Origin: Citreicella sp. C3M06
GTDB taxonomy: Bacteria; Pseudomonadota; Alphaproteobacteria; Rhodobacterales; Rhodobacteraceae
DNA: 64,000 bases
Direction: 5' to 3'
NCBI RefSeq assembly: GCF_018860705.1
Contig: NZ_JAHKQA010000002.1
Coordinates: forward strand, 1 to 64,000
Numbering within the stretch: the stretch's first letter is position 1; every line of letters starts with the position of its first letter. The notes beneath the pieces were generated by a model, which saw only the letters and a program-made list of their open reading frames with translations, was not told the origin of the DNA and did no database searches. Shown in pieces: positions 42,939-59,764 of the stretch. Position numbers and translations under genes: made by a program.

Positions 42939-43793
42939 TCAGGGGCGTGCCCGTTCAATTGGCAGTAGCACGGCCGCATTGTCGAGATCGCCTTCGCCCT
43001 GCGCCACTGCATCGCGCATCATCTCGAGATAGCGATTGGCAAAGGGCAGCCCCTGCCCCCGTGCAGCGCCCCGCTCGGCAATCAGGGTGAAATCCTTAAG
43101 CGATTGCGCGATGCGCCCTTGCGGCGTGAAATCGCGAGCGACCATCAGCGGGCCCTTGGCGTCCATCACATCAGAGCGCGCGGCCGAGACGCGGGCCATG
43201 TCGAGAAATTCCTGCGAGGACAGGCCAAGGGCATTGGCAAAGACCATACCCTCGGCCAGCGCCGCGCGATTGAGGCCCAGAACCAGATTGATCGCCAGCT
43301 TGGCACGGTTGCCATTGCCGATGCCGCCCACGTGCAGGCGGTTGGCGCAGATCGCGCTGAGGATCGGGTCGATCCGCGCGGCGGTGTCCTTGCATCCCGC
43401 GATCAGCAGCAGCGCGCTACCATTTGCCAGCGCGCGCGAGGTGCCGGAGACCGGCATTTCGATCAGGGTGATGCCCTTCTGTGCGGCCTTGTCCGCGAGG
43501 CCCTGCATCCGGTCCGGATCGCAAGTACTGAGCGACACGAGGGTGCAGCCTGCCTGTGGTGCGCCGTCGATCAGCCTTTCCAGCTGGTCGGTGTCGAAGA
43601 CGCAGGAAAACACCACATCTGCCTGCCAGACCTCGGGCGCGGTGCAGGCCGTGCCGCCCGCGCGCTCCAGATCCAAGCCGCGCGCCGCGTCCGGGTCGCA
43701 GCCGCGCAGCGCATAGCCCGCCGCCAGCAAGCGCGCCGCCACGGCAGAGCCGATCAGCCCAAGGCCAAAGAGTCCGATCTCCGGTTCAGCCAT
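42939..43793 (-). CDS. NAD(P)-dependent beta-hydroxyacid dehydrogenase (3-hydroxyisobutyrate/tartronate-semialdehyde type)
   Basis: A 284-residue enzyme with the dinucleotide loop LFGLGLIGSAVAARLLAAG, the substrate loop EMPVSGTSRALANGSA and catalytic Lys in GNGNRAKLAINLVLGLN. ATG 43793 overlaps the end of the upstream dehydrogenase gene by eight bases. Two paralogous beta-hydroxyacid dehydrogenases in tandem suggest successive or parallel oxidations of related acids. Substrate unknown. Confidence 0.9.
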   Translation of the reverse strand: MAEPEIGLFGLGLIGSAVAARLLAAGYALRGCDPDAARGLDLERAGGTACTAPEVWQADVVFSCVFDTDQLERLIDGAPQAGCTLVSLSTCDPDRMQGLADKAAQKGITLIEMPVSGTSRALANGSALLLIAGCKDTAARIDPILSAICANRLHVGGIGNGNRAKLAINLVLGLNRAALAEGMVFANALGLSSQEFLDMARVSAARSDVMDAKGPLMVARDFTPQGRIAQSLKDFTLIAERGAARGQGLPFANRYLEMMRDAVAQGEGDLDNAAVLLPIERARP

Positions 43794-44646
43794 TGGCGAT
43801 GTCCTTGTCGAGCGCATCGCTCATGGCGAACAGATGCGAGAAATCCGTCTCGCCATCACCGTTGGCCACCGCGCGGGCCAGCATGGCATGGGTCAGGTGC
43901 GTGTAGCTGGCCGGGCCGCCCAGCCCGTCGGCAAAATGGCTGGCCAGCCCCAGATCCTTTTCCAGATTGGCGATGCGCGAGCGCGCATTCATTGTCCCGC
44001 TGAGGATGTCGCGGGGAAAGCGCACCTCGGTGACAAAACTGCGGGCATTGCCAGCGTTGAGCACCTCGACCGCGCGATCCACATTCAGCCCGGCCTTTTG
44101 CGCCAGCGTCAGCCCTTCGCAGGTGGCCATGAAGGCGCTGTGCAGGATCAGGTTGTGCACCAGTTTCATGGCGTGCCCCGCCCCCACCGGCCCCATGTGG
44201 AAGCGCTGCGTGGAAATCTGCGCCAGCACCGGCGCGATGCGGGCGATGACCTCGGCCTCGCCGCCCAGCATCAGCGTCAGCGCGCCTGCATCGGCGCCCG
44301 CCGCGCCGCCGGTCATCGCCGCATCGACATAGGCACAGCCGCGCGCCGCCAGATCCTGTGCAAGCCGGGCGCTGGCCTCGGGGGCCGAGGTGGTCAGATC
44401 GACGATGACGGTCCCCTCGCGCAGCGGCATATCCGCCAGCGCCGCCACCACCTGCCCCGTGGAGGGCACCACGAACAGCAGCACATCCGCCGCGGCGCAA
44501 TCATCCTGCACGCCGCCCGACAGCTCGGCAGCAGCAACCGCGCCGGGCACCGCATCGTGTGCGGCGACAAGCATCCCGGCGGCATCGAGACGGCGCGCAA
44601 TGCCCCGCCCCATCTGCCCCAGCCCGATCACGCCGCAGGGGGTCAT
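43786..44646 (-). CDS. NAD(P)-dependent beta-hydroxyacid dehydrogenase (second copy)
   Basis: A 286-residue paralogue of the next gene. The nucleotide loop is IGLGQMGRGIARRLDAAG, the substrate loop DAAMTGGAAGADAGALTLMLGG (Met-Thr in place of Pro-Val-Ser), and the catalytic Lys is in GAGHAMKLVHNLI. The altered loop hints at a different substrate from the family type. It overlaps the Gfo/Idh gene upstream by ATGA. Confidence 0.9.
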   Translation of the reverse strand: MTPCGVIGLGQMGRGIARRLDAAGMLVAAHDAVPGAVAAAELSGGVQDDCAAADVLLFVVPSTGQVVAALADMPLREGTVIVDLTTSAPEASARLAQDLAARGCAYVDAAMTGGAAGADAGALTLMLGGEAEVIARIAPVLAQISTQRFHMGPVGAGHAMKLVHNLILHSAFMATCEGLTLAQKAGLNVDRAVEVLNAGNARSFVTEVRFPRDILSGTMNARSRIANLEKDLGLASHFADGLGGPASYTHLTHAMLARAVANGDGETDFSHLFAMSDALDKDIANG

Positions 44647-45716
44647 TGCGCCGCCTTCAGATCCGCCAGCGTTGCCATGGCGCTGTTGGACAGCGGCAGG
44701 CGGACGACCTCGCCGGTTGCCGCCGACACATCGGCGCCAAGATAGGTTTCCATCACCATGCGCGCATGTTCCGGCGCCACCAGCGGCGGGCGATCCAGCA
44801 GCACCGATTCAAGGAAATGCAGCGTTTCCGGCCCCATCTGCCCGGCATACATGTGATCGACATGTTCGCCCGGCATGGTGGACATGGGGAATTGCGTGCC
44901 GCCCTCGACCGTATTCAGCCAGTGATCGCGCGCCGTGTCATCCAGCACCAGCGAGCCTTCGGTGCCGGTGATCTCGATCCAGGTGGAGCAATAGTTGGGA
45001 TAGCTCGGGGGAAGGTTCCAGCCACCGCCAACGACCACGAGGCTGCCGTCGCTCATGTTGACGGTGTTCCACATGCAATCATACGAGCCGTTGAGCTCTT
45101 TCATGAAGCCATAAGCCCCCTGCGAATAGATTTTTTCGGGCTTTGCCGGGGCCAGCAGCCAGAACACGAAATCAAGGTCATGGGTGCTTTCCATCGCCGC
45201 CGGAGACAGCTTGACCCGGTTGGCGATGCGCGAGCCAAGGCTGCGCGACAAATGCCGCGAGACCATCACGTTGACGATCTTGCCCAGCTTGCCCTCGGCA
45301 ATCGCCTTGCGGGCATAGGCGATCTTGGGGTTGAAGCGCTGCGAATAGCCGATGGTGAACTTGACCCCCTTGCTGCGCGCGATGTTGATCAGGTCGTCGG
45401 CTTCGGACAGGTCCATCGCGATGGGCTTTTCCAGCAGCACATGCTTGCCCGCCTTCAGGCAATCGCGCGCGATGGGGTAGTGGGTCGGCTCTGGCGTGGT
45501 CGAGATATAGACCACTTCGATGGCGTCATTGGCGACGATCTCGTGATAATTGTCGGTGGCAGAGGCCGGGTTGGTCAGCGCTTTGACCTCGGCCAGCCGC
45601 TCGGGCTTGATCTCGCAAATGTGCAGCTTGTCGACCAACGCCGATTTTGCCAGAGATTCCGCGCGCATGCCGCCGCACCACCCGGTCCCGATGACCGCTA
45701 CTTCGACCTGTCGCAT
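44643..45716 (-). CDS. Gfo/Idh/MocA family oxidoreductase
   Basis: A 357-residue NAD(P) sugar-type oxidoreductase. The N-terminal loop is VIGTGWCGGMRAESL, LEKPIAMD follows at about residue 95, and the catalytic-type AMESTHDLDFVFWLL is at the usual distance. The start is ATG 45716 with GGAGG nine bases upstream; the 12-residue extension lacks a site. First gene of a four-gene unit with two beta-hydroxyacid dehydrogenases and a GST, and 65 bases after the GntR regulator. Confidence 0.92.
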   Translation of the reverse strand: MRQVEVAVIGTGWCGGMRAESLAKSALVDKLHICEIKPERLAEVKALTNPASATDNYHEIVANDAIEVVYISTTPEPTHYPIARDCLKAGKHVLLEKPIAMDLSEADDLINIARSKGVKFTIGYSQRFNPKIAYARKAIAEGKLGKIVNVMVSRHLSRSLGSRIANRVKLSPAAMESTHDLDFVFWLLAPAKPEKIYSQGAYGFMKELNGSYDCMWNTVNMSDGSLVVVGGGWNLPPSYPNYCSTWIEITGTEGSLVLDDTARDHWLNTVEGGTQFPMSTMPGEHVDHMYAGQMGPETLHFLESVLLDRPPLVAPEHARMVMETYLGADVSAATGEVVRLPLSNSAMATLADLKAAQ

Positions 45717-45781
45717 CCTGTTTTCCTCCCATGGATAGGTTGCGGAAAACATAGGCAGTTCAGAGCTTTGCCGAAAGAAAG

Positions 45782-46489
45782 TTAATCTGATGGCCGGTAT
45801 GAGAAATCACGATCACGCCGCGCCATCATGGTGTTCAGCGTCGAATTGATATGGCGCAGCATGGCAGAGCGCGCCTCGTCAGGCTTGCGCCGTTCGATCG
45901 CGGCAAGGATCGCATCGTGTTCGGCAAAGGAATGATAATCGCTCTCGGGCCCCCGGTCGGGGGTTTCGAGCCGGCGCCAGACCACCACCAGCCGCACGCC
46001 GTTCAGGATGCGGTGCATCGCCTGCAACAGCGCGTTGCCGGACGCCTCGGCGATGGTTTCATGGAAGCGGCTGTCAAGATTTTCGTAACTGGCCCAGCTG
46101 CTGGCCACCGGCATCGCCTGACACAGGCGCCGCAGCTCGCGCATCTGCGCCGGGGTTGCGTGCAGGGCGGCCAGCGCCGCTGTTTCGGGCTCCAGCGCAA
46201 GGCGGGCGGCCATCGCTTCGATCGGGCCGGTGGATTCCGAGAGCGCGGCAATCGCCGCTTCGATGCCCGCGCTTCCGGCGCCCTTTGGCAGCCGCGCAAG
46301 ATAGGTGCCGCGCCCGACATGGCGGGTCAGAAGCCCTTCGGACTCAAGCAGCAGCAGGGACTTGCGCAGCTCGGAGCGGGTGACGCCCAGCTCGGTGCAC
46401 AGGCTGCGTTCGGGCGGCAGGCGGTCGCCCTCGGACAAGCCCGAGTTCACGATCCAGCTGCGCGTTCGCGTCACAATCTTGTCGCTCAT
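45782..46489 (-). CDS. GntR-family regulator, FCD subfamily
   Basis: A 235-residue regulator. The N-terminal winged helix is GDRLPPERSLCTELGVTRSELRKSLLLLESEGLL, and the C-terminal all-helical FCD domain has the metal/acid-binding pattern around YENLDSRFHETIAEAS and HDAILAAI. FCD members bind organic acids such as lactate, gluconate or vanillate. It sits between the double-TTT operon (terminated upstream) and the dehydrogenase unit, so it is the likely controller of one or both. TTGGT-type operators at 36979 and 55362 suit such a protein. Confidence 0.9.
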   Translation of the reverse strand: MSDKIVTRTRSWIVNSGLSEGDRLPPERSLCTELGVTRSELRKSLLLLESEGLLTRHVGRGTYLARLPKGAGSAGIEAAIAALSESTGPIEAMAARLALEPETAALAALHATPAQMRELRRLCQAMPVASSWASYENLDSRFHETIAEASGNALLQAMHRILNGVRLVVVWRRLETPDRGPESDYHSFAEHDAILAAIERRKPDEARSAMLRHINSTLNTMMARRDRDFSYRPSD

Positions 46490-46664: not shown

Positions 46665-47639
46665 TTATTGCGAGGCGGTCAGATCGGACACCAGCTCCTG
46701 ATAGGCCGTGGCCTGACCTTCGCGCAGCGCCTGATAGTCAGGGCCGGACATCGGATCGACGCTTTCCCCCAGCCGCGCCATCAGCTTGGCAAAGGTCGGG
46801 TCTTCGAACATCTTGCTGAACGCCTCGGACAGCCTGTCGATCGCCTCTTGCGGGGTGCCCGCAGGCGCCAGCACAAAGCGGTGCATGAAGCCGATATCGC
46901 CATCGACGCCCACCTCGGAAAAGGTCGGCACGTCGTCATAGATCCGCTCTTCGCCAGCGGTCGCCAACACGCGGATCTCGCCCGCGCGCAGCATTTCGCC
47001 CAAGGCGGACGGGAAGGCCATGGTCACATCCGCATCCCCCGAAAGAAGCGCCTGCAGGGCGGGGCCACCACCCTGATAGGGCACGAGGTTCAGCGAGATA
47101 TCCAGCTTCTGCATCATCTGCGCCGCCGGCACGAAGAAGGCGCCCCAGTTGCCGGAATGCGCCATCTGCACGTCGCCCGGGTGGGCCTTGGCGTCGGCGA
47201 CCAGATCATCGAAGGTCTCATAGGGGCTGTCGGCGCGCACGATCACCGAGGTCGGCGCAAAGTTGACCCGCGCGATGGGCACGAAATCGGCCATCGGATC
47301 ATAGGGCAGGTTTTCGACATATTGCTGCAGCATGTCGATGTAGTTGTGCGTGAACAGCAGCTTGTAGCCGTCGGCCTTGGCGCGTGCCACCTCTTGCGTG
47401 CCCTTCTGACCGCCGGCGCCCGGGGTCAGCTGCACGATCACCGGCTGGTTGAGGTAGGTCGGCAGGATCGAGGTGATCACCCGCGCGTTCAGATCGTGCG
47501 AGCCGCCCGCCCCCAGCGGGATCACCATCGTCACCGGCTTTTCCGGGTATTCCGCCACGGCGCTGCCGGTGGCTGCGGCAAGCGCCGTTGCCGCCAGCGC
47601 AAAGGCCGTCAGCGTCGCCTTGAAAGCTGTCTTCATCAT
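46665..47639 (-). CDS. tctC: TTT family periplasmic binding protein TctC (system 1)
   Basis: A 324-residue BUG/TctC-type binding protein with a Sec signal peptide (about residues 1-30, cut near GSAVA). The mature start EYPEKPVTMVIPLGAGGSHD and the pair of binding loops (PGAGGQKGTQEVARAKADGY; AHSGNWGAFF) are typical. It would bind a small carboxylate in the periplasm for TctA1/TctB1. GGAGGAA lies before ATG 47639. Last gene of the operon, directly before the terminator. Confidence 0.93.
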   Translation of the reverse strand: MMKTAFKATLTAFALAATALAAATGSAVAEYPEKPVTMVIPLGAGGSHDLNARVITSILPTYLNQPVIVQLTPGAGGQKGTQEVARAKADGYKLLFTHNYIDMLQQYVENLPYDPMADFVPIARVNFAPTSVIVRADSPYETFDDLVADAKAHPGDVQMAHSGNWGAFFVPAAQMMQKLDISLNLVPYQGGGPALQALLSGDADVTMAFPSALGEMLRAGEIRVLATAGEERIYDDVPTFSEVGVDGDIGFMHRFVLAPAGTPQEAIDRLSEAFSKMFEDPTFAKLMARLGESVDPMSGPDYQALREGQATAYQELVSDLTASQ

Positions 47640-47683
47640 CGTAAGGTTCCTCCCTTGTGTGATTGATGTCTGCGCCGGCCCGA

Positions 47684-49168
47684 TCAGGCCGGCACGGTGC
47701 GCGCGTTGAGCCGCTTCCAGAGCAGGAAGCCGATCACCGGTGTCACGACCAGCACGCAGAGCGCGCCGATGCGTTCGGTCATGAAAAAGCCAACCGTGTC
47801 GCCGCCCGACATGGCCATGGTCTGGCCAAAGGCGTATTCCATCGACGGCCCGAGGATGAATCCCATCACCATCGGCATCACATCGAATTTCGCCGAGCGG
47901 GCGATGATGCCGAAGATGCCGAAACCCACCAGCATCAGCAGATCGACAGGGTCCGAGCGGTACACATAGGTGCCGGCAAAGGCGAACATGATCACCAGCG
48001 GAATAAGCACCGATGTCCGGATCGTCACCAGCCGCGAAAAGAACGGGATCGACAGGTAGCCGATGACCAGAAACAGCAGGTTGGCGATCACCATCGCCAC
48101 GAGAATGGCGAAGACCGTGGCGCCCTGTTCCTCGAACAGCTGCGGGCCGGGGCGCAGACCCTGCGCCACGAAGGCGCCCAGCAGGATCGCGGTGACGTTG
48201 TCGCCCGGAATGCCCAGCGTCAGCAGCGGCACCATGGTCGGCCCGTTCACCGCGTTGTTGGCGGCTTCGGCGGCGGCGACGCCTTCCAGTTCGCCCTCGC
48301 CAAAGGTTTCGGGGTGCTTGGAGGCGTTCTTGGCCGCAGAATAGCCCATCATCGCCGCGACGATCTGACCAAGGCCCGGCACGATGCCAATCATGGTGCC
48401 GATCACCGTCGAGCGGCCGATGGTCGGGATGCAGCGGCGCAGTTCGGGCCATTTCAGCCGCTCGCCGACCAGCGAGGACAGCTTGCGGGCCTTTTCGTTG
48501 CGGATCACCACCGAGGCCACTTCGGGCAGGGCAAACACGCCGATCAGCATCGGCAGCAGCGGTATTCCGGATTTCAGGTCGAACAGGCCGAAGGTAAAGC
48601 GTTCGACCCCGCCCAGCGGGTCGGTGCCGATGAACGACAGCCACAGCCCCAGCATGATCATCATCAGGCTCTTGACCGGGTTGGATCCGGAGGTTGCGGC
48701 GATGACGACAAGGCTCATGAGCAGCACGGCGAACAGCTCTGGCGGGCCGAATTGCATGACCAGAAAGGCGATGGGAAAGATCATCGCGATGGTGAAGATG
48801 TCGCTGGCGGTGTCGCCGAACACCGAGGACACCAGCGCCATGTCCAGCGCCTTGCGGGACTGGCCCTTCTGCGTCAGCTTGTAGCCGTCTCGGGATGTGG
48901 CCACCGAGGCGCCAGTGCCCGGCATCGAAATCAGGATGGCCGGAACGCTGCCGCCAAAGATGCCGCCCTTGTAGATGCCCAGCAGGAACGGGATGCCGAC
49001 GACCGGTTCAAGGAAGAAGGAAATCGGCAGCAGGATGGCCATCGCCATCAGCGTGGTAAAACCTGGCAGCGCGCCGACCAGCATGCCAGCAAACAGGCCG
49101 AAACTCATGAGCGCGACGGTGTCGAGGCGCATGGCCATCGCGAAACCTTCGGTGAATTGATCTAGCAT
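47684..49168 (-). CDS. tctA: TTT family large permease TctA (system 1)
   Basis: A 494-residue integral membrane protein with about 10-12 hydrophobic helices. Family signatures are GALPGFTTLMAMAILLP near residue 33, GIYKGGIFGGSVPAILISMPGTGASVAT near 65, and the second-half repeat GIVPGLGQIVAAMMGYSAAKNASK with TLGIPGDNVTAILLGAF. It drives secondary carboxylate uptake. Follows tctB by 51 bases. Confidence 0.95.
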   Translation of the reverse strand: MLDQFTEGFAMAMRLDTVALMSFGLFAGMLVGALPGFTTLMAMAILLPISFFLEPVVGIPFLLGIYKGGIFGGSVPAILISMPGTGASVATSRDGYKLTQKGQSRKALDMALVSSVFGDTASDIFTIAMIFPIAFLVMQFGPPELFAVLLMSLVVIAATSGSNPVKSLMMIMLGLWLSFIGTDPLGGVERFTFGLFDLKSGIPLLPMLIGVFALPEVASVVIRNEKARKLSSLVGERLKWPELRRCIPTIGRSTVIGTMIGIVPGLGQIVAAMMGYSAAKNASKHPETFGEGELEGVAAAEAANNAVNGPTMVPLLTLGIPGDNVTAILLGAFVAQGLRPGPQLFEEQGATVFAILVAMVIANLLFLVIGYLSIPFFSRLVTIRTSVLIPLVIMFAFAGTYVYRSDPVDLLMLVGFGIFGIIARSAKFDVMPMVMGFILGPSMEYAFGQTMAMSGGDTVGFFMTERIGALCVLVVTPVIGFLLWKRLNARTVPA

Positions 49169-49219: not shown

Positions 49220-49792
49220 TCACAGCCCCGGAATGGCGGCGTAGATCGATTCGATCACGTCAAGTTCGGGCAGCGACACCGCCAGCAGGCGGGTCGATGC
49301 AAGGTACAGCAGAACCGGGCCGGTGATCGCCACTGCCGCGATCTGCAGGACCGATCTTGCGCCCATCAGAAGCGAGATCAGCGAGACCGCGATGATGGTC
49401 GAGATCAGGAACCCGACCGAGGTCATGATCAGCGCGTACAGCAGCATGATGCCGAACAGCGCCGCGGCGCGGGCCCATTGCTGCGCGCTCATCGGGATGC
49501 CTTCGTCCGGGACCATGCCGCGCAGTTGCAGGATCAGCGCAATCGCGCTCAGCACCACCAGTGCGCTCAGCACCAGCATCGGAAACAGACTTGGCGGGAT
49601 CGCCGACAGCGATCGACCGAACAGCGCCTTGGGCTCTGCCACCAGCGCGCCAAGAAACAGCAGCGACAGGGCGGAAGCGATCAGCAGGGCGGCGAGGGTC
49701 AGCGTCTCGGGGCTGCGCAGGCGGTCACGATGCGTCAGCGGCGCGCCGTGCACCGAGGACTGCTCGTTGGAAACAGGACTGTCGTGCATCAT
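49220..49792 (-). CDS. tctB: TTT family small permease TctB (system 1)
   Basis: A 190-residue membrane protein with four predicted helices, the small subunit of the TTT system. Typical features are the N-terminal cytosolic stretch, the first helix (LTLAALLIASALSLLFLGALVA), and the pre-third-helix ARAAALFGIMLLYALIM segment. Its ATG overlaps the stop of the DctP-like gene (ATGA), so the two are coupled in translation. Confidence 0.9.
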   Translation of the reverse strand: MMHDSPVSNEQSSVHGAPLTHRDRLRSPETLTLAALLIASALSLLFLGALVAEPKALFGRSLSAIPPSLFPMLVLSALVVLSAIALILQLRGMVPDEGIPMSAQQWARAAALFGIMLLYALIMTSVGFLISTIIAVSLISLLMGARSVLQIAAVAITGPVLLYLASTRLLAVSLPELDVIESIYAAIPGL

Positions 49793-50727
49793 GCCGTGAT
49801 CTCCTGAGGCTGCTCGAAAAGTTGAAGGGCGCCGGGGTCGATCCGGGCCCGGGTTTGCGCGTTCTGTGCCGAAACCGCATCGCGGAACGCAGAGGACTGT
49901 CTGTCGGTCAGGCTGTGCAGATGTGCGCCCGCCGCCCGCAGGCTTTCGGCGCAGGCGGTGTCGTCGGAAAGCGCGTAACCGCGCTGTGCGTCGCTGGCCT
50001 CGCGCAGCGCGGCGCGCACGGCGCGGCGCAGATCGTCCGGCCAGCCCGCCACGGTGTCGCGATGGAACCAGACCGGCGCCACCCCTTGCAGGTGGCCGGT
50101 CAGGGTGATCTCGGGCTGGGCGTCATGCAGCCCGAAATTGTAAATGTTGGTCAGCGGGTTTTCCTGCGCATCGACCTCGCCCGAGGCAACCGCCGCGACC
50201 AGATCCTTGACGTCGATCACCCGTGGATCGAAGCCAAGCGCGCGGAACACCCGCTGGTGATCGTCGCTGGCAAGGGTGCGCAGGCTAAGCCCGGCGCAAT
50301 CGTCCGGTGTCGCCAGCTTGCGCTTGGCCGAGATATGGCGCAGCCCGTTGTCCCAGTAGCCCATCACCTCGAAGCCGGTCCTTGCGGCGACATCGGCGGC
50401 GATCCAATCGCCAAGCGCGCCGTCGAGCCGGGCAAACAGATCGTCCCGGGCCGGGGCGGCAAAGGGCATGTCGAACAGCGTCAGCGACGGCACCCGCCCG
50501 GACATGTAGCTCGACGAGAAATAGCAGCCGTGGATCTCGCCAGCTTCGACCATGGGCAGCAGGTCGGCAGCCTTGTGCCCATCGCGAGTGATATCGGGGC
50601 GCAGCAGGATCTCGGCCGCGCCGTCGGTCAGGCGGTGCAGCGCCGCTGCGAAATACCCCGCGCCGCGGGTATGAACCGAATTGGGCCCCTGATAGCCGCC
50701 AAAGATGATGCGATGCGGTTTGCTCAT
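49789..50727 (-). CDS. TRAP-type DctP-family solute-binding protein lacking a signal peptide
   Basis: A 312-residue protein of the TRAP transporter DctP fold. Binding-site marks are intact: GYWDNGLRHISAKR, the carboxylate-binding Arg in CAGLSLRTL, and GEVDAQENPLTNIYNF. But it begins MSKPHRIIFGGYQGPNS, going straight into the first beta strand with no export signal. The upstream in-frame codons overlap the Gfo/Idh gene and are not hydrophobic. No TRAP membrane subunits (DctQ/DctM) are nearby. It should therefore be a cytosolic carboxylate-binding protein. It is overlapped by four bases at both ends (Gfo/Idh and tctB), so it is firmly part of the TTT operon. The true role is unknown. Confidence 0.88.
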   Translation of the reverse strand: MSKPHRIIFGGYQGPNSVHTRGAGYFAAALHRLTDGAAEILLRPDITRDGHKAADLLPMVEAGEIHGCYFSSSYMSGRVPSLTLFDMPFAAPARDDLFARLDGALGDWIAADVAARTGFEVMGYWDNGLRHISAKRKLATPDDCAGLSLRTLASDDHQRVFRALGFDPRVIDVKDLVAAVASGEVDAQENPLTNIYNFGLHDAQPEITLTGHLQGVAPVWFHRDTVAGWPDDLRRAVRAALREASDAQRGYALSDDTACAESLRAAGAHLHSLTDRQSSAFRDAVSAQNAQTRARIDPGALQLFEQPQEITA

Positions 50728-51854
50728 CCGACCAGCTCCTGCATCAGCTCGGCGGGATCGACCGGCAGCGCAACAGGCACGCCGCGCTTGGCCGACAGAT
50801 CCATCGCCATGGTCATCATCAGGTTGCGATGGCCATCGGCGGCGGTGGCATGGGGCGTGCGGGCCCCGGCATAGACCCGCTGGAACCAGCTGTTGGTTTC
50901 CTCGCGCATCGGCCCCCAAAGCTGGCCGTCATGCAGATCGCCCGGCGGGTAGGAGGTCAGGAAATCGACATGCCGCGCCGGGGCGACATAGCCGTCGGGC
51001 ACATAGCCACCGCCCTGCGCCACGTTGGTCGCCATGACCAGATCGCGGTGGGTGTCTTCGATGTCGATGACGCCCTCGGTGCCGACGATGCCGATCTCGA
51101 TGCCGTAGACCGCGCCGGGCCAGACCTCGGGCAGCGCCCAGCTGATGTTCATCGACCAGATGGTACCATCGTCCATGGTGAACACGCCGAAGGTGCTGTC
51201 CTTGGTGCCATGGGCGCTCAGCACCTTGTCGCAGGATTGCGCAAAAACCGAGACGGGTTTCTTGCCCTCCATCAGCCACATCGACATATCAAGGCTGTGG
51301 GTGCCCGACACCACCATCGGCGTCAGCGTCGCGCGATCCTGCGTGCGCCGGGTGGTGGCGATAGGCACCATGCGGTTCATGAAGGCGCGGGTGACGACGG
51401 AATGCACCTCGCCAATCTGGCCGGTGATCAGCCGTTCCTTGATCGCAAGGAAGCGGCGGCGAAAGCGCTGGGTGTAGCCGACCACCGCGTCGATGCCGTT
51501 CGCCTCGATCGCGGCAAGGATCTGGGCGGACTGGCGCGCATCGGTGGCCAGCGGCTTTTCGATGAACAGCGCGTGGCCGTTTTCGATGGCCAGCATGGTG
51601 GGATCGAAGTGAAAGTTCTCATCCGTGGCGATGATCGTCGCGGTGACCTCGGGGCGGTTCAGCAATTCGCGGTAATCGTCGGTGTAGAAATCCGCGTCCA
51701 CGTCGTCGGCCAGCTTGCGGCCAATGTCGGATTTGATGTCACACAGCCCGATCCAGCCGATGCCGGGAAAGTCACGCGCCAGCTCTGCCCGGATACGCCC
51801 GATGGTGCCGCATCCCACGATCGCAAGGCCAACCTGTTTTTTCTCAGTCTTCAT
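50724..51854 (-). CDS. Gfo/Idh/MocA family oxidoreductase
   Basis: A 376-residue NAD(P) oxidoreductase. The Rossmann loop is IVGCGTIGRIRAELA, IEKPLATD follows at about residue 98, and VVSGTHSLDMSMWLM carries the catalytic His. It probably oxidises the compound imported by the TTT systems on either side. The real start is ATG 51854; the longer frame upstream lies inside tctA2. It ends in an ATGA overlap with the DctP-like gene. Confidence 0.92.
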   Translation of the reverse strand: MKTEKKQVGLAIVGCGTIGRIRAELARDFPGIGWIGLCDIKSDIGRKLADDVDADFYTDDYRELLNRPEVTATIIATDENFHFDPTMLAIENGHALFIEKPLATDARQSAQILAAIEANGIDAVVGYTQRFRRRFLAIKERLITGQIGEVHSVVTRAFMNRMVPIATTRRTQDRATLTPMVVSGTHSLDMSMWLMEGKKPVSVFAQSCDKVLSAHGTKDSTFGVFTMDDGTIWSMNISWALPEVWPGAVYGIEIGIVGTEGVIDIEDTHRDLVMATNVAQGGGYVPDGYVAPARHVDFLTSYPPGDLHDGQLWGPMREETNSWFQRVYAGARTPHATAADGHRNLMMTMAMDLSAKRGVPVALPVDPAELMQELVG

Positions 51855-51874: not shown

Positions 51875-53374
51875 TTATTCCGCCGCCACGGGGGCGGTCT
51901 TCTGGCGGCGGGCGCGCAGCCCACGCAGGATTCCTTCGGCGATGACGAACAGCACCGCGGCCATCAGCACCGTGCCGATCCACTGCGACAGGATGAAGCC
52001 GATGGACTTGTCCTCGAACACCAGCAGCGCGCGGCGCAGGTTCTCGTCGGCAAGCGGGGCAAGGATCACCCCCAGCACGATCGGCGCGACCGGAAAGCGG
52101 AACACGCTGAGCGCCACACCAAACAGCCCGGCGCCGAACATCACCCAGACATCGAACATCGACAGCTTGACCGACCAGGCGCCGATCACGCAGACCGGGA
52201 TGATCAGCGGCATCAGCACGCCGCGCGGCAGGCTGAACAGCTTGACGCAGGGCTTGATTAGCGCAAAGGCGGCGCCAAACATCATCAGGTTGGCCAGCAA
52301 CAGCGCGCCGTAAATGAAATAGATCAGGCCGGGGTGGTCGATCTGGATGGTCGGCCCGACACTGACATTCTTGAGCGTCAGCGCGGCCAGCAGCGCGGCG
52401 GCGGCGGCGTTGCCCGGAATGCCAAGCGCCAGCGTCGGCAACATCGACCCGCCAATATTGGCGTTGTTGGATGTCTCGGCGCAGACCAGCGCCTGATAGC
52501 TGCCCTTGCCCCATTTCGCCTGTTCCTCGGGCGAGGCGCGGCGGCGGCCGATGTCATAGGCGAGGAACGATGCCACGTTGGCCCCCGCCCCCGGCACCGC
52601 CCCGATCAGCGCCCCAAGGATGCCCGAGCGCGTCGCGGCCGGAGCATAGCGCATCAGCTTGCCCATGGTCGGCAGCACCCGGCCCACCGTGCTGGGGATC
52701 GTCGGCGCCGAGCGCGACGGCAGGGTGCGCAGGATCTCGGTAAAGCCGAACAGGCCGATCAGGATGGCGACGTAGCTGATGCCGTCGAACAACAGGTAGC
52801 TGTCGAAGGTAAAGCGCGGCACGGCGTGGATCTCATCGAGCCCGACCAGCGCGACCAGCATACCGATCCAGCCCGCGATCCAGCCCTTGAGCGGCATTTC
52901 CCCCGAGGCCATCGACCCCGACACCATGATGCCGATCACCGCCAGCCAGAACATCTCCCACGAGCGGAAGTTCAGCGCAAAGCTCAGGATCAGCGGGATG
53001 AACAGGATCAGCAGCACGATGCCCAGCGTGCCGCCCATGAACGACGCGGTGATCGACATGCCAAGCGCTTGGCCGCCCTCCCCGCGTTGCGCCAGCTGGT
53101 GGCCTTCGATCATCGTGGGCACCGCGTCGGGGGTGCCGGGAATGTTGATCAGAATGGCCGAGATCGCCCCCCCGAACACCGACCCGGTATAGACCCCGAT
53201 CATGAAGCAGATCGCCAGTTCCTGCGGCATTCCCGCCGACAGGCCGATCAGAAGGCCCATCGCCATGGTCGTCGACAGCCCCGGCAGCGCGCCCCAGATG
53301 ATGCCCAGCGACACCCCCGCCAGCGTCATCACCAGCAAGGTCGGCGACAGAAGTTGGATGAATGCGTCCAGCAT
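51875..53374 (-). CDS. tctA: TTT family large permease TctA (system 2)
   Basis: A 499-residue membrane protein, paralogue of system 1. Signatures are GALPGLSTTMAMGLLIGLS near 30, GVYTGSVFGGAISAILINIPGTPDAVPT near 60, and GAVPGAGANVASFLAYDIGRR with TLALGIPGNAAAAALLAAL. The ligand-facing motifs differ from TctA1 (PGTPDAV versus PGTGASV), suggesting a different substrate. It lies three bases after tctB2. Confidence 0.95.
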   Translation of the reverse strand: MLDAFIQLLSPTLLVMTLAGVSLGIIWGALPGLSTTMAMGLLIGLSAGMPQELAICFMIGVYTGSVFGGAISAILINIPGTPDAVPTMIEGHQLAQRGEGGQALGMSITASFMGGTLGIVLLILFIPLILSFALNFRSWEMFWLAVIGIMVSGSMASGEMPLKGWIAGWIGMLVALVGLDEIHAVPRFTFDSYLLFDGISYVAILIGLFGFTEILRTLPSRSAPTIPSTVGRVLPTMGKLMRYAPAATRSGILGALIGAVPGAGANVASFLAYDIGRRRASPEEQAKWGKGSYQALVCAETSNNANIGGSMLPTLALGIPGNAAAAALLAALTLKNVSVGPTIQIDHPGLIYFIYGALLLANLMMFGAAFALIKPCVKLFSLPRGVLMPLIIPVCVIGAWSVKLSMFDVWVMFGAGLFGVALSVFRFPVAPIVLGVILAPLADENLRRALLVFEDKSIGFILSQWIGTVLMAAVLFVIAEGILRGLRARRQKTAPVAAE

Positions 53375-53377
53375 GGC

Positions 53378-53941
53378 TCAGAACCCTCCCGGCAGCGGTA
53401 TGTGAAACAGTTTCTGAAAGACCACCGACAGCGCGATGGTCCAGAACAGGGCAATGGCGGCCTTGGCCCAGAGCGGGCCGCGCCAGAACACGTGCATGAT
53501 CCCGGTCAGCGCGATGAAACTCACCGGCTCGAAGGCCGACAGCACGAAGGGCGCGCCAGCGATGCTGAAGAAGACCTGAAAGGCAAGGAATTGCAGCCCG
53601 AGGATATAGGCCCCGACCATTGCCGCCAGCGCCAGCATCCGGACATGTTCGGTGACGTCGCCCAGCAGCAGTTCACCGGCACTCCCGTCCTTGCGGCGCT
53701 GCAGGGCGGAATTCCCGAGGATCAGCGCCATGACCGCAAGCGACGCGCCAGCCACGAAGGGCAGCAACCCCGGCGCGGTCAGCGCCGAGCCCGGCACTGG
53801 CAGGCGCAACGATGCGATCATCACGACCACCGCCGTCAGCAGCAGCGCGCCGGCCGCGATCAGGTCGAGCACTGGCGCGGCAAGGCCCGCGTTCGCGTCC
53901 TCGCCTTCGAATTTGATATCTTCGGAAACAGGTGAAGTCAT
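53378..53941 (-). CDS. tctB: TTT family small permease TctB (system 2)
   Basis: A 187-residue membrane protein with four predicted helices: LDLIAAGALLLTAVVVMIASL, FVAGASLAVMALILG, LALAAMVGAYILGLQFLAF, and a C-terminal pair. Small subunit of the second TTT system. It follows tctC2 by about 90 bases. Confidence 0.88.
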   Translation of the reverse strand: MTSPVSEDIKFEGEDANAGLAAPVLDLIAAGALLLTAVVVMIASLRLPVPGSALTAPGLLPFVAGASLAVMALILGNSALQRRKDGSAGELLLGDVTEHVRMLALAAMVGAYILGLQFLAFQVFFSIAGAPFVLSAFEPVSFIALTGIMHVFWRGPLWAKAAIALFWTIALSVVFQKLFHIPLPGGF

Positions 53942-54032: not shown

Positions 54033-55145
54033 TCAGCTGATCGGCGGAGCGACGTAGCCCTGCGGCGGCCACCAGTTGTCGAAATCCTCGGGCGCCGGAA
54101 GGCCAAGTTCCTCGGCGGTGCGGATATCGGCGCCGATGGCATCCCTGTTCTTGTTGAAGATATCTGCGGTCATCGCTTCCATCAGCGCGCCCTGGCGGTC
54201 GGCTTCTTCGCCAACAAGCAGGCCGGGCTGGAAGAAATTCTGCGCCATCATCTCCTTGAACCCATCCGAGGTCGCCGCCGCGCGGAAGGCATCGACGAGC
54301 TGCTGCAAGACTTCGGGGGGCAGCGCGCGCGGCACCATGAAGTTGTAGGTGGCGCCCACGGGCAGGATCTTTTGCGTCTCGGGCAGGATGCCCCCGATCG
54401 ACGGCAGCACCCGGCCATCCTTCAGCGTCACGTCAGCCGAACTGGCGTGGCACAGGTTGCGCATCTCACCGCTGCGGATCAGGTCGATATGTTCGTGCAG
54501 ACCGCCCCCGGCGATGTCGGTCTCGCCCTGAAGCCCGGCCAGCGTGGCGGGCTTGCCGCCCTTGTAGGGAACGTATTTCATCTCGATCCCCGCCATATTG
54601 GCGATGATCAGCGACACCTCGTGCCAGACACCGCCGGTGCCCGAGGTCGAGATCGTCAGCTTGCCGGGGTTGGCCTTGGCTTCTTCGATCACCTCTTCCA
54701 TCGACTGGAAGGGGGAATCCGCGCGCACCGACCAGCTGGCGGGGGCGTCGGCGGCCTTCATCGGCAGCCAGTCCCGCCACGGCACGAAATCCGCGTGGCC
54801 CAGCACCCGCACGAAGCGGTTGTAATTGGCCGCGCCCAGCAGCGTGTAGCCATCGGGCCGCGCCGCCGAGACGTATTGCGTCGCCACACCGCCGACCGCG
54901 CCGGGCTTGTTGACCACGGTGATGGTCCAGCCCTGGGCGCGGGCCATCTCGTCGGCCAGCTTGCGCATGATGGAATCGGTGCCGCCGCCGGCGGAATACA
55001 TCACCACCAGGGTGATCGGTCGGCGCGGAAAGCTTTGCGCCAGTGCCGCGCCGGGGATGGTGATGCTCATGGCGGCAAGGCCACCGACGCTTGCCCCTTG
55101 CGCCAGAAGCGCCCGGCGGGTCAGCGAGTTGTTTGTTTTAACCAT
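54033..55145 (-). CDS. tctC: TTT family periplasmic binding protein TctC (system 2)
   Basis: A 370-residue TctC/BUG-type binding protein, longer than system 1. The N-terminus has TRRALLAQGASVGGLAAM before the cut site at GAALAQ, a weak twin-arginine-like signal. The mature protein starts FPRRPITLVVMYSAGGGTDSI and has the second loop STSGTGGVWHE. It is the first gene of the double-TTT operon, behind the AT-rich control region with TTGGT half-sites. Confidence 0.93.
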   Translation of the reverse strand: MVKTNNSLTRRALLAQGASVGGLAAMSITIPGAALAQSFPRRPITLVVMYSAGGGTDSIMRKLADEMARAQGWTITVVNKPGAVGGVATQYVSAARPDGYTLLGAANYNRFVRVLGHADFVPWRDWLPMKAADAPASWSVRADSPFQSMEEVIEEAKANPGKLTISTSGTGGVWHEVSLIIANMAGIEMKYVPYKGGKPATLAGLQGETDIAGGGLHEHIDLIRSGEMRNLCHASSADVTLKDGRVLPSIGGILPETQKILPVGATYNFMVPRALPPEVLQQLVDAFRAAATSDGFKEMMAQNFFQPGLLVGEEADRQGALMEAMTADIFNKNRDAIGADIRTAEELGLPAPEDFDNWWPPQGYVAPPIS

Positions 55146-55395: not shown

Positions 55396-56280
55396 TCACG
55401 GCCCCCTCCCCGCAAGCGTCAACGCGATCCAGGTCAACACTGGCAGACAGGCGAAGGTCAGCAGCGTCGACACCACCACCACACCGACCACCCGTTCGGG
55501 ATCGCGCCCAAAACGTTCCGCGAACACATGGATCACGATCGCCGTCGGCATCGTCGCCATCAGGAACACGACCCCTGCCGGAACCCCCTGCAACCCAAGC
55601 AGCCAGATCACGCAGATCGCCGACACCAGCCCGACCCCCAGCCTGCCTACGGCAAGGATCAGCGCCGAACGCAGGTCGGCGACCCGCAGCCGTGCCAGCG
55701 ATGTGCCCAACAGCAGCAGCATCGCCGGAACCATCATGCCGCCGGTCATCTCGGCGGTGCGGGCCAGCACGACTGGCACCTCGACCCCTGTCACCAGAAC
55801 GACCACCACCGCGATCACCGCGTAGATCAGCGGCTGGCGCAGCAAGACGCCCAGCCGAAAACTGCCCGCATAGATCGCCATGCCGATGGAGTGTTGCGCC
55901 AGCGCGACGACGACGAAATAGGCAACCGCCAACTCTCCGCCCGCCTCGCCGAAGGTCAGCAGCACCAACGGCAGCCCCATGTTGCCCGAATTGGGCATCA
56001 TCAGCGCCGGCAGAAAGCTGCGCAAAGATCCGCCCGCCAGCAGCAGGATCGCCGCCGACAGTGCCGCCGAAATCGCAAGGCACACCGCTGCCGCGCCGGA
56101 CATTCCCAGCACCGCCGAAGGGTCCAGCTGCAACGAGGTCAGGCTGCTGAAGATCAGCGCGGGCGCCGCCACCAGCACCACGACGGTGCTGAGCGTGCGG
56201 GTATCGAGCCCGCCCGCCCCGCGCCCCATCGCGTAGCCGATCAGCACGAGAATACCGACCGGCCCGAGGATCTGCAGCAT
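55396..56280 (-). CDS. AEC (auxin efflux carrier) family transporter
   Basis: A 294-residue membrane protein with about ten helices in two five-helix repeats. The family asparagine motif is LPALMMPNSGNMGLPLVLL, and the crossover of the second half is FLMATMPTAIVIHVFAERF. Members export or import small acids such as malate or malonate. I start at ATG 56280 (MLQILGPVGILVLIGYAMG), the usual family N-terminus; a TTG start 14 residues earlier has no site. It is transcribed toward the TTT operon, with the regulatory region between. Confidence 0.88.
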   Translation of the reverse strand: MLQILGPVGILVLIGYAMGRGAGGLDTRTLSTVVVLVAAPALIFSSLTSLQLDPSAVLGMSGAAAVCLAISAALSAAILLLAGGSLRSFLPALMMPNSGNMGLPLVLLTFGEAGGELAVAYFVVVALAQHSIGMAIYAGSFRLGVLLRQPLIYAVIAVVVVLVTGVEVPVVLARTAEMTGGMMVPAMLLLLGTSLARLRVADLRSALILAVGRLGVGLVSAICVIWLLGLQGVPAGVVFLMATMPTAIVIHVFAERFGRDPERVVGVVVVSTLLTFACLPVLTWIALTLAGRGP

Positions 56281-56377
56281 CTGCCCGATCAAGTGACACG
56301 CCCGCCTGCCTTTTGCGCCCAAAGGCGATCCGGCGCGGCATCAACCATCGCGTCGGATCGGCAAAGGCGCATCGCGA

Positions 56378-57160
56378 TCACTCCGCGTCCAGACCGAAGA
56401 AGCCACTGATCGCGAGCATGAATTCCTGCGGCCGGTCGACGTTGATCACATGCTTGGCCCCTGTGACGCAGGTGTACTCCGCCCCCGGGCAGGCCGCCGC
56501 CATGGCTTCCATCGTGGCCGGCGTGGCGCCGCCATCATGTTCGCCAGAGACGAACAGCGCGGGCACGCTCATCTGTCCCAGATGGCGCAGGTAATCGAGC
56601 TGCATCAGCGCATGGGCGCAGCCGCGATAGCCCGTCGCCGAGGTGCGCAGGAAGCTGTCGCGCAGTGCCGCCTCGCGGTCGGGATGGTTGGCGCGGGTCT
56701 CGTCGCTGAGCCAGAAGCCGACGGTGCCTTCCCACACGGCCTCGACCCCGCCAGCGTCAAGCTTGGCCAGCCGGTCATGCCAGCTTTGCACGAAGGGCGG
56801 CGGCGCATCGGCGCGCGCGGCGCAGCAGACGATACGCTCGATCCGGTCCGGGTGGTGCAGCCCAAGCCCCAGCGCCGTCATGCCGCCAAGCGAGAGCCCC
56901 ATCACCGACGCTTTTTCCACCCCATGCGCATCCAGCACGCCAATCGCATCGGCGACGAAATCGGCAAACTGGTAGGGGCCTTCCGGCGCCGGGCTCTGGC
57001 CGTGGCCGCGCGTGTCGCAGGTGATGACGCGGTAATGGGCGCTGAGCAGCCCAAGCTGGCCCTGCCACATGGCTTCCGTGGCGCCAAGGCTGTTGAGCAG
57101 CAGCAGCACCGGCGCGTCGGAGGGTCCGTGAACGGACGAGTGAAGAGTGATAGCAGTCAT
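56378..57160 (-). CDS. Alpha/beta hydrolase, 3-oxoadipate enol-lactonase (PcaD)-like
   Basis: A 260-residue alpha/beta hydrolase. The nucleophile elbow is GLSLGGMTALGL, the oxyanion strand VLLLLNSLGATEAMW, and the Asp/His are in LFVSGEHDGGATP and TGAKHVINVDRP. The opening and the DTRGHGQSP block match PcaD proteins, which hydrolyse the 3-oxoadipate enol-lactone in protocatechuate breakdown; no other pca genes are seen, so the substrate may be another lactone or ester. Start ATG 57160, or 57166 two codons earlier. About 97 bases separate it from the AEC gene. Confidence 0.88.
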   Translation of the reverse strand: MTAITLHSSVHGPSDAPVLLLLNSLGATEAMWQGQLGLLSAHYRVITCDTRGHGQSPAPEGPYQFADFVADAIGVLDAHGVEKASVMGLSLGGMTALGLGLHHPDRIERIVCCAARADAPPPFVQSWHDRLAKLDAGGVEAVWEGTVGFWLSDETRANHPDREAALRDSFLRTSATGYRGCAHALMQLDYLRHLGQMSVPALFVSGEHDGGATPATMEAMAAACPGAEYTCVTGAKHVINVDRPQEFMLAISGFFGLDAE

Positions 57161-57364
57161 GCGCATTCCCGTGGTCTTGGGCCCCGGCCGCATCGGCCAG
57201 AACCTGTGTCATGATGGGAAAGCGGATCCGCCCGGCGACATGCCAAAGCGGCATCGGCTTTCTCACAAACCTGAACCAGGCAAGTGAGTTAGCACCAATG
57301 CCAGCGCCTCCCCCTGACAAAGGCTACCCTCGGGATGCCTGCGAAAGAAATGATTAAAGATAGC

Positions 57365-57389
57365 GGTATCTATCAGAATGGTTGATACC
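57365..57389 (-). promoter_or_regulatory. LysR-type binding site candidate upstream of the hydrolase
   Basis: GGTATC (57365-57370) and GATACC (57384-57389) are inverted, enclosing a nested TATCA-N7-TGATA. The arrangement resembles a LysR T-N11-A box. It lies between the LysR stop and the hydrolase start, about 205 bases upstream of the latter. Confidence 0.45.
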
Positions 57390-57410
57390 TGCCTCAAGTT
57401 GTGCGCCCTG

Positions 57411-58379
57411 TCAGGCCAGCGCCCTGTCGCCGTGATCGGCGTCGGGGCCGTAACGGCTCATCGGGACGATCGACAGGGCGCTGGTCAGCTCCGCCTGCAG
57501 GATATCCGCAAAGCCTTCGGCGCCCTGGCTCAGCGGGCGCGAGGCGTGTTCTATCCGCAGGTAATCGACCTCCATTGGCGGATCGGCCAGCGGCACGACC
57601 CGCCGCCGTCCCCCGTCCAGATCCGGCAGGCACAGGATTCCCGGCAGGATCGAGATCCAGTCTGATTCGGCAACTAGAGCCAGCGTGCCATGCATGGTGT
57701 CGAGCTCCAGCCGTTCGCGCACCTCGATCTTGTTCTGGTTCAGATAGCTTTCGATGCGGTGGCGGCGGGCGTTGCCATGCCCCGGCAGCACCAGCTTCTG
57801 CGCCGGCAGGTCCGCCAGCCGCACCCCTTCGGGGCCAACGGGCAAGTCGCGCTCTGCACTGCACACAAGGCATTCGCGATCCTGCCCCATCGGCGTGACC
57901 TCGAGCATCTGGCCCATGTCGAACGAGCCGGGAACCACGGCGAAATCCAGCCGCCCCTCGCTAACATCATTGGCCAGCGCGCCGGAATAGGCCTCGGAGA
58001 TCGACAGGCGTACCTCGGGAAAGGCGGCGGAAAACCGCAGCAGGGCCGGTGTCAGCACGGCGCGGGTAAAGGTCGGCATCAGGCCGATGCGGATATGCCC
58101 CGTCACCGATTTCGACAGCGAGCGGATGCGGTCTTCGGCATGGTAAGCGGCGGCAAGCACCTTGACCGCCTCGCGGTAGAAGGACCGGCCCGCCTCGGTC
58201 GGGCTCACCCCGGACGAGCTGCGGGTGAACAGGTTGACGCCGTAGCGCTTTTCGATCTGGCCCACATGCATCGACAGGCCCGATTGCGTGGCGTTGACCT
58301 TTTCCGCGGCGGCGGAGAACGAGCCTTGTTCATAAACGGCAACAAAGTATCGCAACTGCTGAAGCTTCATTCGAGCCAT
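57411..58379 (-). CDS. LysR-family transcriptional regulator (Cbl/NAC-like)
   Basis: A 322-residue regulator. The N-terminal winged helix is MKLQQLRYFVAVYEQGSFSA followed by AAEKVNATQSGLSMHVGQIE, then the effector-binding domain. It may start at 58379 or at the internal ATG 58370. It is divergent from the flavin reductase/BKACE operon across 96 bases, the usual LysR layout for activating the divergent genes, and it lies upstream of the PcaD-like hydrolase. Confidence 0.93.
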   Translation of the reverse strand: MARMKLQQLRYFVAVYEQGSFSAAAEKVNATQSGLSMHVGQIEKRYGVNLFTRSSSGVSPTEAGRSFYREAVKVLAAAYHAEDRIRSLSKSVTGHIRIGLMPTFTRAVLTPALLRFSAAFPEVRLSISEAYSGALANDVSEGRLDFAVVPGSFDMGQMLEVTPMGQDRECLVCSAERDLPVGPEGVRLADLPAQKLVLPGHGNARRHRIESYLNQNKIEVRERLELDTMHGTLALVAESDWISILPGILCLPDLDGGRRRVVPLADPPMEVDYLRIEHASRPLSQGAEGFADILQAELTSALSIVPMSRYGPDADHGDRALA

Positions 58380-58475
58380 CCAATTTTCTTCTACCTTCTA
58401 CAGCCTAAGATTAATTGTCCTGATGGTTCAACCCGCCATATCCTGTGAACAACGACGAACAGGAAAGGATGACAC

Positions 58476-58979
58476 ATGTCAGACGACACACTTCTTGAAC
58501 CTTTGGACGGCCGCCTGCTGCGTGATGTCTTTGGCTGCTTTGCGACCGGCGTGACCGTCGTCACCTCGATCGGGGAGGATGACAAACCGGTGGGGCTGGT
58601 GGTCAACTCCTTCTCGTCGGTGTCGCTGGACCCGCCACAAATTCTCTGGAGCATCGGGCTCAATTCCCCGTCGCGCGATGCGTTCTGCAAGCACGAAGGC
58701 TTTGCGGTCAACATCATGGGCGCTGAATCCAAGGACGAAACCATGCGCTTTTGCACCCCGTCCGACGACAAGTTCGCCGATGTGGACTGGTGGGCGGGCC
58801 ATTACGGCGTGCCGGTGCTGCGCAGCGCGCTGGCGACGCTGGAATGCCGCACCGAACAGCGGATCATCAGCGGTGACCATGAAATCTTTATCGGGCGGGT
58901 GCTGCGCGTCGATCATCAGGATGTGGCGCCGCTGCTGTTCCACCGCGGGAAATTCGCACAGCTGGGTGCGCTCGCATGA
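58476..58979 (+). CDS. Flavin reductase family protein
   Basis: A 167-residue FMN-binding split-barrel protein. FATGVTVVTS, VNSFSSVSLDPPQILWSI and the GDHEIFIGRVLRVD strand are the family pattern. It is usually the reductase partner of a two-component monooxygenase, or a stand-alone FMN reductase. No matching oxygenase is in this operon. Its stop overlaps the BKACE start (ATGA), tying the two together. AAAGGA lies upstream of the ATG. Confidence 0.92.
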   Translation: MSDDTLLEPLDGRLLRDVFGCFATGVTVVTSIGEDDKPVGLVVNSFSSVSLDPPQILWSIGLNSPSRDAFCKHEGFAVNIMGAESKDETMRFCTPSDDKFADVDWWAGHYGVPVLRSALATLECRTEQRIISGDHEIFIGRVLRVDHQDVAPLLFHRGKFAQLGALA

Positions 58980-59764
58980 GGCCGCTGCCCCGTCTCATGG
59001 TCGCCCCCAACGGGGCGCGGCGCACCAAAGCCGACCACCCCGCCCTGCCTATCACCGATGACGAGCTGGTGGCTGTGACCCGCGACTGTATCGCCGCCGG
59101 TGCCGATGGCGCGCATCTGCATCTGCGCGATGCCAATGGCGTGCATCTGCTCGATGCGCCGCGCTATCGCGCGCTGCTTGACCGGCTCGAGGCCGAATTC
59201 CCGGACGCCTACCTCCAGGTCACCTCTGAAGCGGCGGGGCGCTATGACGCGCAGGCGCAGCGCGCGATGGTCCGCCAGCTAAAACCGCGCTACGTGTCGG
59301 TCGCCCTGCGCGAGATGGTCCGCCAGCCCGAAGACTGGCCTGCCGCCCGCGAGTTCTATCACTGGGCCGCCGATGCCGGGGTCGAGATCCAGCACATCCT
59401 CTATTCTCCGCAAGAGGTGCAGGGCTTTGTCATCGCGCTGAACAGTGGCCGGATTCCGGGCCGGCATCATCTGGTGCAGCTGGTGCGCGGCACCTATGCC
59501 GATGGTGCCGACGGCGCGCTGCCGCTGGCGGACTACCTCGCCGAAATGACGCGCGCCAGCGATCACAGTTTTGATTGGATGCTGTGCAGCTTTGGCGCGG
59601 ATGAGACCGCCAGCCTTGTCGAAGCGGCGCGCGCCGGTGGCAAGGCACGGGTCGGCTTCGAGAATTCGCTGCAAAACGCTGATGGCAGCCGCGCCGCCGA
59701 CAATGCCGAACGGGTGCGCGAGGTGAATGCCGCGCTGCCGCAGCCCGCATCGGCGCTGTCCTGA
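58976..59764 (+). CDS. BKACE (DUF849) family enzyme, substrate unknown
   Basis: A 262-residue TIM-barrel zinc enzyme of the beta-keto acid cleavage family. H47/H49 in GAHLHLRDANG and the glutamate in RVGFENSLQNADG are the metal/acid positions. The opening LMVAPNGARRTKADHPALP marks a different subgroup from the carnitine BKACE at 19499-20422, and it is 45 residues shorter. It should cleave a 3-oxo acid with acetyl-CoA. It is coupled to the flavin reductase gene and followed by a strong terminator; divergent LysR is the likely regulator. Confidence 0.9.
   Translation: MRPLPRLMVAPNGARRTKADHPALPITDDELVAVTRDCIAAGADGAHLHLRDANGVHLLDAPRYRALLDRLEAEFPDAYLQVTSEAAGRYDAQAQRAMVRQLKPRYVSVALREMVRQPEDWPAAREFYHWAADAGVEIQHILYSPQEVQGFVIALNSGRIPGRHHLVQLVRGTYADGADGALPLADYLAEMTRASDHSFDWMLCSFGADETASLVEAARAGGKARVGFENSLQNADGSRAADNAERVREVNAALPQPASALS

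Follow-up and report, generated by a model that had tools for sequence, protein, structure and literature searches.

A clade of DctP-family proteins that lack an export signal is widespread and forms a separate branch of that family, and one member is encoded at positions 49789..50727 (minus strand) of the window, the 64,000-nucleotide stretch of Citreicella sp. C3M06 DNA analysed here. DctP proteins are usually treated as periplasmic parts of transport systems. From the absence of a signal we infer a cytosolic location for the clade proteins, which often accompany oxidising enzymes of sugar type; they probably handle a carboxylate there and may be enzymes. The fold and the family are known, and no description of this clade, or of any signal-less DctP protein, was found in the open-licence literature searched.

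The window gene is an open reading frame of 312 amino acids plus stop, whose ATG at position 50727 is preceded by CAGGAG within the end of a Gfo/Idh gene. There is one other ATG, GTG or TTG in frame, a TTG 64 codons further upstream; a start at this TTG with a signal was rejected, since the extension does not look like a signal and the open frame before the ATG is the Gfo/Idh gene in a different frame. The protein matches PF03480 with 170.2 bits against a cutoff of 23.4, over residues 9-288 and profile positions 1-278 of 286, and PF03480 alone was matched at an E-value of 0.001, with no match to PF03401 (TctC). It passes NCBIfam NF037995 (116 against a cutoff of 50) and does not reach the cutoff of TIGR00787 (129.5 against 175.05). 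The structural model is full-length and of high confidence, predicts a TRAP solute-binding-protein fold, and places the first beta strand at residues 5-10; R130, R150 and AQENP are all found. The window DctP is a DctP-family protein by descent, and neither a working TRAP P subunit, having no signal peptide and no DctM nearer than 15 kb, nor a TctC. The sequence-only reading had described a protein without export signal that begins directly in its first beta strand, keeps the ligand-binding arginines and the QENP motif, and has no DctM partner, and these points were confirmed.

All genes of the operon described here lie on the minus strand. As that reading had also stated, the DctP gene has a four-base overlap at each end, ATGA in both cases, one with a Gfo/Idh/MocA oxidoreductase gene (GfoA, 50724..51854; PF01408, 65 bits) and the other with the TctB gene of the second TTT set (49220..49792; PF07331, 51.1 bits). 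This set also contains TctA (47684..49168; PF01970, 437.8 bits) and TctC (46665..47639, a start that is the analyst's choice; PF03401, 160.7 bits on 46668-47675), with the Sec-like N-terminus MMKTAFKATLTAFALAATALAAATGSAVA. The first set comprises TctA (51875..53374; PF01970, 419.6 bits), TctB (53378..53941; PF07331, 29.9 bits) and TctC (54033..55145; PF03401, 120.4 bits), the last with the Tat-like N-terminus SLTRRALLAQGASVGGLAAMSI. The proposed placement of DctP within a TTT operon is right in that TTT genes flank it, but the gene sits between two complete TctC/B/A sets, each with its own signal-bearing TctC. The remaining operon genes encode a GntR/FCD regulator (45782..46489; PF07729, 93.2 bits, and PF00392, 57.2 bits), a second Gfo/Idh oxidoreductase (GfoB, 44643..45752; PF01408, 82.7 bits) and two 3-hydroxyisobutyrate-dehydrogenase-like enzymes (43786..44646 and 42939..43817, both with PF14833 and PF03446). 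GfoA has no signal and starts straight in its Rossmann fold, so export of DctP by piggyback on GfoA was rejected. No obvious lyase was seen among the identified genes of the operon. Beside it, at window positions 55399-59764, lie genes for a Mem_trans-type transporter, an alpha/beta hydrolase, a LysR regulator, a flavin reductase and, outside the operon on the opposite strand, a beta-keto acid cleavage enzyme. Of these, the transporter, hydrolase and LysR genes are found again at related loci.

The same genome has 29 DctP genes (30 matches, two of which are pieces of one broken gene), and for 27 of the 29 a DctM match lies within 1.6 kb; the window DctP lies 750 bp from a TctA match. The broken gene (L008 and L030, two overlapping pieces, near 17074-17903 of contig C62, outside the window) stands near a contig end, and no DctM match was found up to 10 kb away.

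A search of genome contigs found 26 loci, and among 295 genomes from the family to which the window belongs seven, the own genome included, gave a match at 1e-40 when the best six or seven first-look candidates per genome were scored, which makes 33 initial loci. Four of these (L053-L056), 27-38% identical over part of the query and with N-termini judged signal-like by eye, were excluded from the clade. A clade profile at 1e-60 matched eight of 385 genomes of the class, five with clade members and three with exported proteins, and in one alphaproteobacterial family (f102) clade members at 1e-80 or better occur in 21 of 24 genomes, with one to three copies each, among the matches listed. The final set comprises 57 loci, which are not independent, 30 of them being from f102 (L043 and L045 are counted there; L122 was removed and L141 never entered, both judged duplicates, of L045 and L043 respectively), and the rest come from Rhodobacterales-type, Nitrospinota, Tectomicrobia, Acidimicrobiia and Betaproteobacteria records. 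Tritonibacter horizontis O3.65 (L031) has a syntenic orthologue of the window DctP with 75% identity. Plasmid carriage was considered and rejected: all 105 plasmid records were below 60% identity, and the 20 listed were 25.9-32.6% identical.

In clade DctPs a GGY-type motif stands just after the first strand, and in 28 of the 29 remaining initial loci the nearest ATG, GTG or TTG lies 3-11 residues before it. One member, from an Ilumatobacter MAG (L052:7803-8738), lacks this motif, through a frameshift, another start or a real loss, and was retained in the clade count. A stop occurs 8-18 codons before the motif in ten loci (L033, L035, L036, L037, L040, L046, L049, L050, L062 and L063) and likewise, at 14 codons, in L059, which leaves no room for a signal there. 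Across the 57 loci, the farthest ATG or GTG within 45 codons (TTG not counted) lies less than 12 residues from the fifth domain residue in 41, and in 15 of the other 16 the N-terminal stretch is not hydrophobic (maximum 1.09). The last, L135, is ambiguous and the weakest case for signal absence within the clade: begun at the most distant upstream start codon, it reads 1.88, where exported proteins read 1.36-2.94. It was not counted as a signal because the values of its two closest relatives, L133 and L082, are 0.87 and 0.37. Orthologues with a normal signal peptide had been named as the finding that would make the window gene a local truncation, and the result went the other way: none with a classical signal occurs in the 57 loci, L135 being ambiguous. 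Local truncation is rejected by these signal-less orthologues, and the description of a signal-less, translationally coupled and probably cytosolic DctP stands.

The comparison with other DctPs used 32 loci, 29 from the own genome plus L096-L098, of which L024 had no match to the clade profile. Of the 31 others, 27 are signal-like (1.36-2.94) and four are fragments or late-starting matches (L008, L030, L025 and L026); with these four and two short matches (L019 and L023) excluded, 25 exported DctPs were compared, 22 from the own genome and three from others. The 57 signal-less loci score 309-490 bits with the clade profile, against at most 243 for the others, and FastTree places all 57 together against the 25 exported proteins with support 1.0, on a branch of 0.51.

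A conserved arginine of domain II, R147 in SiaP, forms a salt bridge with the carboxylate. R130, R150, E189, N190 and H212 of the window DctP have the spacing of SiaP R127, R147, E186, N187 and H209, with a constant offset of 3. In the available excerpts on SiaP, R147 and R127 hold the acid and a hinge network is made up of R127, E186, N187 and H209 (PMC4089482), the role of R147 also being given in PMC5812351. Within the clade, R130, R150 and N190 are present in all 57 loci, E189 in 53 and H212 in 54, while among the exported DctPs R150 is found in 24 of 25 and the other four in only 12-13; the SiaP-type network is common to part of the DctP family and is no mark of the clade. Other positions do separate the two sets: Y12 (56/57 in the clade against 0/25 exported), H19 (54/57 against 2/25), Y69 (57/57 against 1/25) and N127 (57/57 against 9/25). 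Mapped by the ends of the alignment, Y12 falls at about Asn10 of Haemophilus influenzae SiaP, which, as far as the excerpted text goes, is a ligand contact there and not in two other SiaPs (PMC4089482). The placement of Y12 and Y69 is based on alignment and secondary structure, and we infer that Y12, H19 and Y69 would stand near the ligand. The ligand is likely to be a carboxylate, with the domains closing on it.

Neighbouring genes were counted over about 8.4 kb at the 57 clade loci and at 20 controls, taken from the 28 other DctP genes of the own genome. Since the queries were drawn from the clade's own loci, zero among controls expresses specificity to these loci and not an absolute rate, and since at 11 of the 57 loci the sequence on one side is shorter than about 6.5 kb, the counts are lower bounds: Gfo/Idh occurs near 30 of the 57, hydroxyacid dehydrogenase near 26, TctC near 20, TctA near 17, a conserved 247-residue protein without Pfam match (cluster c11, L083:8375-9115 and relatives) near 16, Ldh_2 near 13, cupin near 10 and GMC oxidoreductase near four, each against 0/20 controls. 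DctM shows the opposite pattern, with one of 57 against 19 of 20 at 1e-20, weak DctM-like matches (1e-7 to 1e-8) near L082, L133 and L135 being below that threshold. Gfo/Idh, Ldh_2 and cupin genes are present on both deep branches of the tree and TctA on one. The suggested tie of DctP to TTT systems thus survives in part, TctA being near 17 loci, but Gfo/Idh is the commoner neighbour, and TTT as the defining partner was rejected as a general rule. Seven loci (L036, L037, L039-L042 and L046) have no TctA, TctC or DctM match in their flanks, which are short in L041, L042 and L046. Five of Nitrospinota/Tectomicrobia type (L039, L040, L041, L042 and L046) share a conserved neighbourhood of an AAA_26 protein, which we take to be BioD-like, an MFS transporter, two amidohydrolases and a 200-residue protein without Pfam match, where Pfam was run on L046 only and the neighbours of the other four were assigned by clustering.

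In the 295 family genomes, clade DctP was found in seven and GfoA (1e-120) in seven, with six shared (P 6e-11), or five of six shared without the own genome (P 2e-9), the P values treating genomes as independent. Two exceptions are seen among the best six or seven candidates scored per genome. G211 (L092) has a clade DctP with TctABC, Ldh_2, cupin and GfoB nearby and no GfoA found, and in G014 GfoA and GfoB are both present, a clade DctP was not found and TctA is split in two. In the latter genome the module (L169, C36:93500-109500) may be decaying. A GMC oxidoreductase adjoins Gfo/Idh in L085, L087, L137 and L138, four members of one subfamily.

At one locus, from an Acidimicrobiaceae MAG (L050:8004-9311), the DctP domain (residues 8-284) is fused to a Cupin_2 domain (345-413), with Ldh_2 directly next, and in the Ilumatobacter MAG a cupin frame stands next to DctP, followed by Ldh_2. 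The pattern HxHN..E..H, presumably the usual cupin metal-ligand pattern, is present in all ten aligned cupins. No other single observation argues as strongly for a metabolic role in the cytosol as this signal-less fusion to an enzyme-type domain, seen at one of 57 loci.

The reading that we put first, while holding it at somewhat below an even chance, is that the clade DctP handles a carboxylate in the cytosol as part of a Gfo/Idh catabolic module, and that it is most likely an enzyme evolved from a solute-binding ancestor. Two oxidoreductases of Gfo/Idh or GMC kind can bracket an elimination or a hydration. In the proposed scheme the protein would stay in the cytosol, keeping the Venus-flytrap carboxylate site of the TRAP binding proteins, and its substrate would be a carboxylate imported by the neighbouring TTT systems or made by the Gfo/Idh enzymes. 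It may then catalyse a step without redox chemistry (an elimination, a hydration or an isomerisation) that lies between the reactions of Gfo/Idh, Ldh_2 and hydroxyacid dehydrogenase or alongside them. Tyr12, His19 and Tyr69, the clade-specific residues of domain I, would be candidates for the catalytic groups; catalysis itself, and the kind of reaction, are speculative. An enzyme is the first choice because no obvious lyase is seen among the identified operon genes, the new residues are capable of acid-base chemistry and enzymes derived from solute-binding proteins are known. Several observations stand against it: a protein that only binds would also need the intact flytrap network, which is not special to the clade, 27 of the 57 loci have no counted Gfo/Idh match nearby, the Nitrospinota/Tectomicrobia members adjoin the BioD-like protein and amidohydrolases instead, and G014 retains both Gfo/Idh genes without a clade DctP found among the candidates scored, though its TctA is in pieces. 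Moreover, DctP is less conserved than would be expected of a core enzyme, with 49-61% identity to six relatives against 80-88% for GfoA (75% against 96% to L031).

This faster change relative to GfoA, GfoB and TctA, which makes DctP one of the least conserved operon proteins along with TctB and GntR, together with the intact network, keeps two non-catalytic roles in play. As a cytosolic carrier or buffer, which is possible and the stronger of the two, the protein would pass an imported acid or a reactive keto-intermediate to Gfo/Idh or the cupin, doing no chemistry. The complete SiaP-type ligand and hinge network, the cupin fusion and the more rapid change than in the Gfo/Idh enzymes agree with such a role, as does the 4-bp overlap with GfoA, found at four of the nine loci where a same-strand GfoA ends just before DctP. 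In a second alphaproteobacterial family, on the other hand, GfoA lies 1-4 kb from DctP on the opposite strand, small soluble acids rarely require carriers, and we know of no dedicated cytosolic substrate carrier of DctP fold. A sensor that signals the presence of a carboxylate to the TTT permease or a regulator would also retain the binding site, and several members have GntR, LysR and two-component genes nearby, but it appears unlikely: no single regulator is constantly adjacent to the clade loci, the GntR and LysR proteins of the window possess their own ligand domains, and the sole domain fusion seen is to a cupin and none to a DNA-binding or signalling domain. The fusion and the enzyme neighbours favour a metabolic role over a sensor.

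Export by an unrecognised route, with the protein serving the TTT permease as its binding protein, is very improbable. TctA near 17 clade loci speaks for it, and the available part of PMC5812351 raises, as speculation, the idea that TctA could be served by binding proteins belonging to other systems when tctC is absent. Nevertheless, both TTT sets of the window carry their own signal-bearing TctC, at 40 of the 57 loci no neighbouring TctA match was counted, and the 41 loci described above have no ATG or GTG start that leaves room for a signal. A decaying pseudogene or local truncation has a negligible chance: the genus-mate G088 gave no match among its best six or seven candidates, which indicates that DctP is dispensable, but the modelled fold is complete, the residues are conserved across the clade, and the Tritonibacter orthologue is syntenic.

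Taken further, and with slightly less confidence than the enzyme reading itself, the clade may comprise the first enzymes on the DctP (PF03480) fold, descended from a TRAP binding protein that came to work in the cytosol. Their partners in an oxidise-eliminate-reduce pathway would be Ldh_2, a metal cupin and two Gfo/Idh enzymes, and in one actinobacterial line the protein is fused to the cupin. NF037995 would label the window DctP 'TRAP transporter substrate-binding protein DctP', and if the clade is cytosolic and tied to catabolic enzymes, transporter calls would be wrong wherever it occurs. It would then also be a well-defined example of a binding protein put to use inside the cell, for which exported relatives are there to compare and the new residues are few. 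The clade also gives a handle on an uncharacterised pathway of marine Alphaproteobacteria and others.

Among known systems, 4,5-dihydroxyphthalate decarboxylase is a cytosolic enzyme of solute-binding-protein fold, on which, described as such, no paper was found in the open-licence literature. That cytosolic single-domain proteins match Pfam signatures of solute-binding proteins is stated in general terms in PMC9602780, whose excerpts name no PF03480 case. The closest solved relatives of GfoA and GfoB by sequence, although distant (88 and 75 bits), are the DgpA-type Gfo/Idh glycoside 3-dehydrogenases DgpA1 and DgpA, and a further point of likeness is the GMC oxidoreductase that adjoins Gfo/Idh in the four loci named above; DgpA oxidises the sugar of puerarin to its 3-oxo form, and the available text of these papers mentions no DctP protein (PMC11239390, PMC8563793). 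Cyclohexadienyl dehydratase, according to the excerpts of PMC7683729, is an enzyme that evolved from a solute-binding protein for amino acids and so a precedent for a solute-binding fold turned enzyme, but its ancestor was an arginine-binding protein and not a DctP, and for the clade DctP catalysis is a proposal. Compared with TctC (PF03401), the window DctP is alike in gene neighbourhood and general flytrap architecture but belongs to a different family, each TTT set having its own TctC. Compared with TRAP DctP/SiaP (PF03480), the clade DctPs differ in having no signal peptide, no DctM nearby, and the clade-specific Y12, H19 and Y69.
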